Shown: piece after piece, positions 21,619-25,856 of the stretch
How positions within the stretch are numbered: position 1 is the stretch's first letter
Layout: every line of letters starts with the position of its first letter
Source: Actinomycetota bacterium
Lineage (GTDB): Bacteria; Actinomycetota; Thermoleophilia; RBG-16-64-13
Assembly (NCBI GenBank): GCA_016278725.1
Contig: JADQBG010000009.1
Span: 124,001 to 188,000 of the forward strand
Length of the DNA: 64,000 bases
Reading direction: 5' to 3'
Translations under genes and position numbers: made by a program
Notes under the pieces: model-generated
The model's input: the letters and a program-made list of their open reading frames with translations, nothing else
The model's database searches: none
Told to the model about the DNA's origin: nothing

Positions 21619-22983
21619 GTGTACATCTCGCCCGAGGAGATCGTCGAAACGCTGACGATGATCACGCAGCAGAACCTCGACGTTCGCACGGTCACGCTCG
21701 GCCTGTCCTTATCCGGCTGCACCCACCCCGACGTCGAGGTCATGGCGCAGCGGGTCTACGAGCGCGTCACCTCCGCAGCCGAACATCTGGTGCCGATCGC
21801 CAAGCAGATCGAGCGCGAGTATGGGCTCCCGATCGTGAACCAGCGCATAGCGGTCACTCCCATCGCCCAACTGGCGGCCGCCACCGACGCCGAGGACCTT
21901 ACACCGCTGGCCGTGGCGCTCGACCGGGCCGCGCTCGAGGTGGGTGTCGACTTCCTCGGGGGTTTCTCGGCCCTCGTGCAGAAGGGGACCGGTGACGGAG
22001 ACCGCCGCCTCATCGCCTCGATTCCTGCAGCCTTGGCGGCCACGGAGCGGGTCTGCGCCTCGGTCAACGTCGCCTCGACCCGCACCGGGATCAACATGGA
22101 CGCCGTGCTGCAGATGGCCGCGGTCATCCAGGATACGGCGCAGGCCACGGCCGACCGGGACAGCCTCGGCTGCGCCAAACTCGTGGTGTTTGCCAACATG
22201 GTGGAAGACAACCCCTTCATGGCCGGGGCCGTGCATGGTTCCGGCGAACCCGACGCGGTCATCAACGTGGGGATTTCCGGGCCGGGAGTGGTGCGTGCCG
22301 TGGTCTCGTCCCTGCCCGCGGACGCCGATCTGACCAGCGTGGCCGAAGCGATCAAAGCGACCGCCTTTAAGATTACCCGCATAGGAGAACTGGTTGCCCG
22401 CGAGACGGCGCACCGGCTGGGCGTGGCCCGCGGCATCGTCGATCTATCGCTCGCACCTACCCCGGCGGAGGGCGATTCGGTCGCCGAGATCATCGAGGCT
22501 ATGGGGGTGGGCCGCTGCGGGGGTCCCGGTACCACCGCGGCTCTCGCGCTTCTGAACGACGCGGTCAAGAAAGGCGGGGCGATGGGCACGAGTTCGACCG
22601 GAGGCCTTTCCGGTGCCTTCATTCCCGTTTCCGAGGACACCGGCATGATCCGCGCCGTGGAGAGCGGAGCGCTTTCGCTGGAGAAACTCGAAGCCCTGAC
22701 CAGCGTCTGCTCTGTGGGCCTCGACATGATCGCCATACCGGGAGACACCGCCACCGAGACCATCGCCGGCATCATCGCCGACGAGTGCGCCATCGGCGTG
22801 ATCAACGCCAAGACCACGGCGGTGCGCTTGATTCCGGCGGCCGGCAAGAGGGTTGGGGATAGGGTGCACTTCGGCGGCCTGCTGGGAGAAGCCCCGGTGA
22901 TGGCGGTCAACGATTGGGCGGGCACGGTCTTCGCGCGGAGGGGCGGACGTTTCCCGGCGCCGCTGGGGAGTCTGCGTAACTGA
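21619..22983 (+). CDS. PFL family protein (UPF0210/DUF711)
   Basis: 454 residues with GTG start and AGGAGG at 9 nt. The sequence runs M-I[11 protein letters not shown] near the N-terminus, [18 protein letters not shown] in the middle and V-G-R-C-G-G-P-G-T later, all typical of this family, which has a pyruvate-formate-lyase-like fold. No radical-Gly motif is apparent and the biochemical function is unknown. It pairs with the upstream ACT protein. Confidence 0.88.
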
Positions 22984-23464: not shown

Positions 23465-24625
23465 TCAGACAGTGGCCAGCTTATCCTCGACCACTCGATG
23501 CGCCCTTACAAACTTGCTCAGGATGAACAGGTAGATGAGGATCGCTAGGTACACGCTGATGTAGTTGAGGGCCGATATCCCGGTGAACTGGACGAAGAAC
23601 CCGTAGACGTACACTCCCAAGACCTGGGAGCCGACGAAGGCTCACACGAAACCCCACTGGGAGGGGGCGAAGGCCGTCTTGGAAAACTCCGTCCTCAGGT
23701 AGTCCCGCACCACGTACACCGCCGCCACTCCCCAGCCAATCGCCAGGGCGTAGGAACCGGTTATAAGCAGAGACGTCGACCCGGGAACGTCCAACGCGAC
23801 CTGAGGCTGCACGTACTCGGCCACCCGGTAGGCGCCCAGTCCCAGCAGGCAGGAGATGGGAACCACCAAGAAAAAGCCCGGCAGAATGGGATTGGGGGGT
23901 AACTCCCGCGCCTTGATATGCGTGTAGAGCAAGAACCCCAACTTGGCGACCAACATTAGGACGCCGATCACCAGGGCAAAAACCGTTCCCACGGCGGCGA
24001 TGCCGGCTACCGTGTCGTTTTCGGCCATGGAAGTGATCCCGGAGCCGGTGAGCGTCACCAGGCCGAAGGCGAAGACGTCCAGCAGCCAGATGAAGTTGAA
24101 CTGGGTGAGGTCGACGCCTTCCGAGAACCAGGTCCGGCCGACCGTGACTTCGAGGAAGACGAGAACCGCCAGGAGCACGCCGAAGATGATCAGCGAGGGA
24201 AGCATGAACGCCTGCATGTGCGCGCTCATTTGCGGCACGAAGAAGCCGAAGGGCGCCCAGAAGACGTTCACCGTCATGGCGAGGGAAGCCACGATGGCGA
24301 AGATCCCCGCGTTCTGATTCTTGTGGGGATTGTTAACGAAGGCCCGGTAGGCCCCGCGCTCTGTGAGCCACCCCCACAGCCGCCCGAGAAAGTACACCGT
24401 GAGCGCGAAGTTGATGAGGGTAAAGGCGAGCATTATGGCCACGAGGGGCAGGTAGAGGGCGCTCTCGGCGCCGGAAAGCGTTCCCCAGCTCACGTTGGAG
24501 AGCGTGATCAGACCCTCGCTGTGGGGGATGCCAAACTGCAGGTAGTTGAAGGCCATGAGCGCGATGCCGCCCGCGGCCAGGGAGGACTGGAACAGCAACG
24601 GGTGAAACGGGATCCGCAGTTTCAC
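23465..24625 (-). CDS. Putative membrane selenoprotein, TsoY-like; in-frame TGA at codon 328
   Basis: Read straight through, the frame gives 386 residues: about ten hydrophobic helices starting HPLLFQSSLAAGGIALMAF, then S-Q-W-G-F-V, a TGA at 23642-23644, and 58 more residues (AFVGSQVLGVYVYGFFVQF ... VVEDKLATV) that form two further clean helices and a basic/acidic tail before TGA at 23465. No start codon or ribosome-binding site precedes the second part. A SECIS-like hairpin with GGUCU loop follows the TGA. From memory, an NCBI family called TsoY (seleno)protein fits; its function is unclear, probably a membrane component of sulfur/selenium redox chemistry. The GTG start has AGGAGG inside the end of the preceding gene. 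Confidence 0.78.
23614..23630 (-). promoter_or_regulatory. Predicted bacterial SECIS element for the TsoY-like TGA
   Basis: On the minus strand CTCCCA pairs with TGGGAG (6 bp, perfect), closing a 5-nt GGTCT loop. The loop starts 18 nt after the TGA. E. coli fdhF, from memory, has GGUCU in its SECIS loop at almost the same distance. Confidence 0.75.
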
Positions 24626-24627
24626 TG

Positions 24628-25500
24628 TTAGCCCTCCTTGATCCCGCTGTAGACGGATTTACAGGTGGGCGAGCTCTTGCCGGTTTTGGCGGCCTCGGCC
24701 GCTGCCGGAGTGGCGTGCTCCGTGCCCCCGAGGCGCTGGGCGTACGCCTCGGCGTCCAGTAGCTGGTCCTTCCACCCCTCCGTCGCCTGAATCTTGACCA
24801 GCCAGGTCTCATGCGGATTCTCGTTGACCGCCGCCGCGGTGGCCTCGGGGTTGGCTTTCAGCGCCTTCCCGGCGATTGGGCTGAGGAAGTACTTCATGTT
24901 CTTCTTGGTCGTGGCGAAGGCGATCTCTTGGTCGACGACCAGGTCCTCGCCCACCTCGGGAAAGACTTCGAGGTCGATGAGGCCGCCCATAAGGGCCACC
25001 CCCGGCTCAGATACACCGACTACTACGGCGTCTTCGTCGGCGCCCGCCTCGCTCTTCACCCAGTACTGGCGCGCCCCGTCGTAGAGCCGGTCGCCCGGCA
25101 GGTCGAAGTCCTTCCCCAAAAAGCCCTCGAGTTTCGCCATGCTCTCCCCCTTGTCGTGCTCTCTCCACCTCGCGGCGAGCCCGTCTCCCGTTTGCAACTG
25201 TTCGCGTAGCACCTCGCGCAGAAGGTCGCAGGCCTGGACCATCTTCGGATAGGCCACGCGGTAGTAGATCTCGTTGCCGTCCCGGCGTGTGCGCACCAGG
25301 CCCAGGTGCCTCAGTACGGCGAGGTGCTGGGAAACTAGTGGTTGCCTGGTTCCCACCATCTCGGAGAGGTCATTAACCCTGCGCTCGCCCTCGCTTAGAA
25401 CCTTCATCAGCTCGACGCGCAGGGGATGGGCAAGGGTTTTGCACACCTCGGCGTGCATCTCGTAGAGTCTCGGGTCGATAGGGTGACCCCGCTCGGCCAT
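24628..25500 (-). CDS. ArsR-type HTH fused to GcvH-like (lipoate carrier) domain, with a nested start
   Basis: 290 residues. Positions 15-95 are an ArsR winged helix (KTLAHPLRVELMKVL; RQPLVSQHLAVLRHLGLV; DGNEIYYRV). Positions 121-245 resemble glycine-cleavage H protein or sulfur-oxidation LbpA: DLEVFPEVGEDLVVDQEIAF, with Lys200 in ATTKKNMKYFLSP aligning with the lipoylated lysine. There is no stop between the parts, but an in-frame ATG at 25138-25140 is preceded by AAGGGGGAG, so a free 170-residue carrier is probably made too. The ATG at 25500 overlaps nothing and lies 2 nt after the DsrE-like stop. I infer it regulates this operon and/or senses its redox state. Confidence 0.8.
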   Translation of the reverse strand: MAERGHPIDPRLYEMHAEVCKTLAHPLRVELMKVLSEGERRVNDLSEMVGTRQPLVSQHLAVLRHLGLVRTRRDGNEIYYRVAYPKMVQACDLLREVLREQLQTGDGLAARWREHDKGESMAKLEGFLGKDFDLPGDRLYDGARQYWVKSEAGADEDAVVVGVSEPGVALMGGLIDLEVFPEVGEDLVVDQEIAFATTKKNMKYFLSPIAGKALKANPEATAAAVNENPHETWLVKIQATEGWKDQLLDAEAYAQRLGGTEHATPAAAEAAKTGKSSPTCKSVYSGIKEG

Positions 25501-25502
25501 CG

Positions 25503-25856
25503 TTAGTAGACCACCACCTTGTCCGCCTCCATCGTCCACTCAGCGAGTAGATCCATGGATCCGCGAACGGTACCGTCGATCATCGCGTGGGACGCCAGAC
25601 CACGGGCGTCCATGCAGCTACCTCACAACCCCACCGCGGCCCTTTTGGCCATGAGGCCCTTCAGCATGCGCTCCGCCGAGTAGTAGCCCTCGGGTGGCGC
25701 TTGGCCCGCCAAGGCGCAGGCCGTGGCGTCCGCCGTCAGGAAGACCTTCACCTGTGCGTCATCCTGCTTGGCCACCGCGAGCGCATGGCGCAGGGCGTTG
25801 TAGGAGCGCTCAGATCCGTAGGGTGCGTCGTTCAGCACAAAAAGCACTGATCCCAT
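25503..25856 (-). CDS. Putative DsrE-family selenoprotein; in-frame TGA at codon 78 (U-G-S-C)
   Basis: Read through the TGA at 25623-25625 the frame gives a full-length 117-residue DsrE/DsrF-like protein: M-G-S-V-L-F-V-L-N-D-A-P-Y-G, E-G-Y-Y-S-A-E-R-M-L-K-G-L, then U-G-S-C-M-D-A-R-G-L and finally S-M-D-L-L-A-E-W-T-M-E-A-D-K-V-V-V-Y, stop TAA. In ordinary family members the segment reads C-G-T/S-C-M-D-A-R-G, so the TGA sits exactly at the first Cys of the redox pair. A hairpin with GGUCU loop follows. DsrE proteins carry persulfide sulfur on Cys; here Sec would be the reactive atom. It is first gene of the operon. Confidence 0.82.
25590..25611 (-). promoter_or_regulatory. Predicted bacterial SECIS element for the DsrE-like TGA
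   Basis: On the minus strand GGACGCC pairs with GGCGTCC (7 bp, perfect) around the 8-nt loop CGTGGTCT. The stem starts 12 nt after the TGA codon. The GGTCT in the loop is shared with the TsoY-like hairpin. Confidence 0.78.

Follow-up and report, generated by a model that had tools for sequence, protein, structure and literature searches.

Comparative evidence strongly indicated that a sulfur carrier of the DsrE/TusD/YchN type contains selenocysteine (Sec) at its active-site position in an uncultured member of the Actinomycetota whose Sec system is complete. The selenoprotein reading of the gene, here called dsrE, was well supported by sequence comparison. The explanation that best covered all of the findings, that of a genuine selenoprotein of the YchN branch with hairpin-aided decoding of UGA 78, a probable role as a sulfur carrier and a probable place in an operon, was considered highly probable as a whole.

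Within the window (the whole 64,000-nucleotide stretch of DNA that was analysed), the gene occupies positions 25503-25856 of the minus strand and comprises 117 codons followed by TAA (ATG at 25856-25854, TAA at 25505-25503). Read with TGA as Sec, the open reading frame was interrupted only once, by TGA at codon 78 (25623-25625, minus strand), which takes the first position of a U-G-S-C motif and in alignments falls on the active-site Cys of YchN, TusD and DsrE. An earlier note on this DNA had described a DsrE-family frame with a single in-frame TGA and gave no strand; the TGA was confirmed at codon 78 of a minus-strand gene. The same note held that the part beyond the TGA is full length and intact and ends in TAA 2 nt before the next gene, and this was borne out. 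The TAA is separated by 2 nt from the ATG of the next gene at 25500, and the match of the product to the Pfam DsrE profile (PF02635; 75.3 bits against a cut-off of 22.7, E 5.6e-21) spanned the TGA, covering residues 3-116 and profile positions 2-115 of 116. Gene callers halting at UGA truncate the products of both dsrE and the nearby tsoY.

Conservation of the in-frame TGA and the Sec machinery

Conservation was surveyed in 61 whole genomes (the bacterium's own and 60 relatives). The bacterium's family accounted for ten full-length copies, spread over eight genomes, and all ten had exactly one in-frame stop, always TGA, which stood at the same codon in those same-family copies that were read. 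Copies outside the bacterium's family had no in-frame stop and had Cys at the site. The earlier note had called for a check of close relatives for other stops or frameshifts, and neither was found at the TGA codon in their homologues. A scan of the genome contigs for dsrE homologues gave 55 loci. The comparison set consisted of 10 Sec genes and 45 Cys genes with the motif, and Cys occupied the Sec site in every one of the 45.

After the TGA, pN was 0.06-0.19 versus a pS of 0.40-0.63, with near values before the TGA. The low pN relative to pS indicated that the part beyond the TGA is translated and held under purifying selection.

Sec versions of the gene comprised the Actinomycetota copies and one copy in a Chloroflexota MAG (locus L058), whose genome also has a tRNA-Sec. 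A tree was built from 52 proteins after masking the site as Cys, and it grouped the nine Actinomycetota Sec genes in one clade (98/98). The best tree required two changes of the Sec label; despite this, Sec may have had a single origin among the 52 proteins. The Chloroflexota copy (L058:208-549) reads UGTCCEARG and has a 7-bp hairpin that is differently placed, and its Sec is possibly a separate Cys-to-Sec change.

The bacterium's own genome (2.73 Mb in 26 contigs, 99.65% complete) was searched, as the earlier note had suggested, for selA, selB, selD and tRNA-Sec, and all four were found. The tRNA-Sec, with anticodon UCA, scored 74.9 bits, selB scored 320 bits, selA adjoins selB and scored 556 bits, and selD lies on contig C26 (locus L095). 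A tRNA-Sec match was also obtained in seven of the eight same-family genomes with TGA copies, the eighth genome being 78% complete. Together, the Sec machinery in the genome and the same-codon TGA in relatives supported the selenoprotein reading that the earlier note had put forward. The selD gene at L095 has an in-frame TGA as well, and SelD of this genome is probably also a selenoprotein.

The hairpin downstream of UGA 78

A bacterial SECIS-like hairpin was located at 25590-25611 on the minus strand, with a perfect 7-bp stem (GGACGCC/GGCGUCC) and an 8-nt loop (CGUGGUCU) that includes GGUCU. The hairpin begins at the 12th nt past the TGA codon (25611), in full agreement with the earlier description of a 7-bp hairpin with a GGUCU loop starting at that nucleotide. 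In all ten Sec genes the stem was perfect and 6-7 bp long, the spacer before it measured 11-13 nt and the loop, of 6-8 nt, contained GG. Stems of 6 bp or more that close a loop of 5 nt or more were absent from the 45 Cys genes, four of which had stems of that length around loops of 3-4 nt. The difference between Sec and Cys genes gave a Fisher p of 3e-11 for loops of at least 5 nt and 3e-8 for any loop, for sequences that are related and not independent. A compensatory change from C-G to U-A was seen in the stem in two genes, the covariation being that of one pair only.

The energy of the hairpin was unexceptional for GC-rich DNA, with a synonymous-codon z of about 0 for the window copy and a mean of -0.9 for the ten genes, and a shuffle test likewise gave a z near 0 for the window copy. 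Synonymous codons of the SECIS region were no more identical than those elsewhere (2/9 vs 7/48, p 0.62). Arg85 was encoded by CGT in 9/9, though CGT made up only 10 of the 170 Arg codons in six genes of the window.

A pseudogene or a sequencing error, with the TGA as an ordinary premature stop, would not be expected to show this TGA in ten copies across eight genomes, with purifying selection on the sequence after it and alongside intact Sec machinery. A bare in-frame stop, and the near-zero energy z of the hairpin in the window copy, would fit such a stop; the pseudogene reading was nevertheless rejected on the conservation of the TGA and the selection beyond it, and we regard it as very improbable. 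Even smaller is the probability, close to negligible, that TGA is recoded throughout the genome (e.g., as Trp) instead of directing Sec insertion. Such recoding would suit the read-through of TGA in two genes of the operon, but other genes end at TGA, such as the DUF711 gene at 21619-22983, the TGA aligned with Cys and not Trp in homologues, and the UCA-anticodon tRNA is the tRNA-Sec. Genome-wide recoding was rejected, as TGA is a normal stop elsewhere. Under the selenoprotein reading, SelB with Sec-tRNA(UCA) would read UGA 78, aided by the hairpin 12 nt downstream, and this decoding would yield the U-G-S-C active site.

Protein type, sulfur context and rival functions

The structure model of the dsrE product (pLDDT 95.4) matched E. 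coli YchN best (1JX7; TM 0.93, about 42% identity), followed by DsrEFH and TusBCD, and according to this model the product is YchN-type. YchN resembles the window protein in fold, in length and in having Cys at the aligned site; its motif is CKTC, with Cys, where the window protein has UGSC, with Sec. In the family profile alignment, the column of Sec78 was occupied by Cys in YchN, TusD (2D1P_A) and DsrE (2HY5_A), and this Cys is the active-site residue of the superfamily. The earlier placement of the TGA at the first Cys of a CxxC motif was upheld. The TusD and DsrE carriers (2D1P, 2HY5) have the fold and the aligned active-site Cys in common with the window protein, but identity was only about 17-22%, and they are heterohexamer subunits with neither CxxC nor UxxC, whereas the window protein has UxxC. 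In TusD and DsrE, the active-site Cys is the persulfide-bearing residue.

Two more specific assignments were rejected. The product scored 22.4 bits against the TusD equivalog TIGR03012, for which the cut-off is 89.25 bits, and gave no match at E up to 10 to the UGSC-containing selenoprotein family (NF041046), a different family with only the letters U-G-S-C in common with it. A second, different DsrE-family gene was observed in the same genome (L104:1489-1851, contig C17), with one in-frame TGA and a U-G-P-C motif; read through the TGA, it matched PF02635 at 52.4 bits.

DsrE-like UxxC selenoproteins have been reported from the Sargasso Sea in 2005 (PMC1088965), in Desulfovibrio vulgaris in 2006 (PMC1794560) and in GOS in 2008 (PMC2398784), and they are listed in later reviews (PMC9312934; PMC13188914). 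The window gene shares with them the PF02635 domain, the UxxC motif, a SECIS-like hairpin that follows the UGA and a host that decodes Sec; WP_014524487.1 and AACY01486889 are among the published DsrE-like cases. Its UGA aligned with the conserved Cys in UxxC, with Sec homologues in other species, a bacterial SECIS stands just 3' of the UGA with an energy that is not exceptional, and tRNA-Sec, SelA, SelB and SelD are encoded in its own genome. It differs in its host, an uncultured Actinomycetota lineage. The YchN type is stated here for the window protein alone, the known DsrE-like selenoproteins being compared by published description. The window dsrE is one more member of a selenoprotein family that dates back to 2005-06; TsoY dates from 2025, and the review PMC13188914 attributes it to Haft and Tolstoy 2025. 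Our literature search returned no paper on YchN together with DsrE, and none on a selenoprotein with GcvH and DsrE.

Around the 55 homologue loci, single-linkage BLAST protein clusters placed ArsR, including ArsR-rhodanese fusions, at 42, an SQR-like flavoprotein (with an NF049943 match below cut-off) at 27 and a cysteine-desulfurase-like protein at 11. Annotated plasmid copies lie near genes for ArsR, an MBL-fold hydrolase, an MFS transporter, rhodanese and cysteine desulfurase. Within the window, dsrE has no SQR gene beside it, and a search of the bacterium's own genome with NF049943 yielded no full-length SQR (best match 26.8 of 525 bits). By association only, the gene neighbours pointed to sulfane-sulfur handling by the dsrE homologues. 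The fold, the aligned Cys and the homologues' sulfur-gene neighbours suggested that the dsrE product could be a small sulfane-sulfur carrier, a function to which we give an about even chance. In such a carrier, Sec78 would bind sulfur in the form of a selenosulfide (Se-SH), or form an Se-S bond with Cys81, and the protein would pass the sulfur on to a partner. The persulfide or selenosulfide on Sec78 is proposed by analogy with TusD and DsrE.

A real selenoprotein could also act as a thiol/selenol oxidoreductase or a metal(loid) ligand and not as a sulfur carrier. UxxC is a thioredoxin-like redox motif, Cys81 was invariant in 40/40 homologues, the next gene encodes an ArsR/SmtB regulator, and several selenoproteins are assigned to metal(loid) handling in a review (PMC13188914). 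However, the neighbours of the homologues were mostly sulfide and sulfane-sulfur genes, and Sec stands where known sulfur-transfer proteins have their active Cys; we consider this alternative possible, if somewhat doubtful.

The ArsR/GcvH fusion and tsoY

Downstream of dsrE, an ArsR/SmtB-type regulator and a GcvH-related domain are joined in one open reading frame (24628-25500, minus strand), and tsoY (23465-24625, minus strand) encodes a membrane protein, a second selenoprotein of the operon that was absent from the earlier note. As they share a strand and a 2-nt spacing, dsrE, the ArsR/GcvH-like fusion and tsoY are probably co-transcribed; dsrE and tsoY are neighbours in the bacterium's own genus and lie on different contigs in genome G004. 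Codon 328 of tsoY is a TGA (23642-23644, minus strand) read as Sec, and the match to NF047643 continued through it: the score went up from 449.5 bits to 519.3, against a cut-off of 250, and profile positions 2-366 of 366 were covered. A SECIS-like hairpin with a 7-bp stem and the loop GGUCU lies downstream (23613-23631, minus strand), and the TGA and hairpin were kept at the same place in two relatives. The second TGA of tsoY (23467-23465) was taken as the true stop, as the sequence after it diverges in relatives.

In comparison with the Tso neighbourhood (TsoY, TsoR and a GcvH-related protein), tsoY of the window was full length and over the cut-off, whereas the ArsR and GcvH-like parts matched TsoR and NF045810 weakly, below cut-off, and are fused. 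TsoB, of the three-selenoprotein Tso operon, was not found over the cut-off in the bacterium's own genome (best 43.7 of 805 bits). The window ArsR scored 67.7 bits, below the BigR/SqrR cut-off of 155, and has Lys at the position of the Cys of the BigR sequence; neither its score nor this residue speaks for a role as a sulfane-sulfur sensor. It is conceivable, and in our judgment unlikely, that the two-selenoprotein operon forms a dedicated selenium-based relay for sulfane sulfur or metalloids, in which a soluble selenosulfide carrier and the membrane selenoprotein TsoY would be joined by a regulator with its own lipoyl-like sensor domain. Through tsoY and the ArsR/GcvH fusion, two selenoprotein families gain a gene context in which their roles can be tested.

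The ArsR-GcvH fusion occurs in the bacterium's own genus and also at L039, while the two parts are separate genes at L044 and L045. In parallel to this fusion, an ArsR-rhodanese fusion adjoins a Cys version of the dsrE gene at L077:4716-5393.
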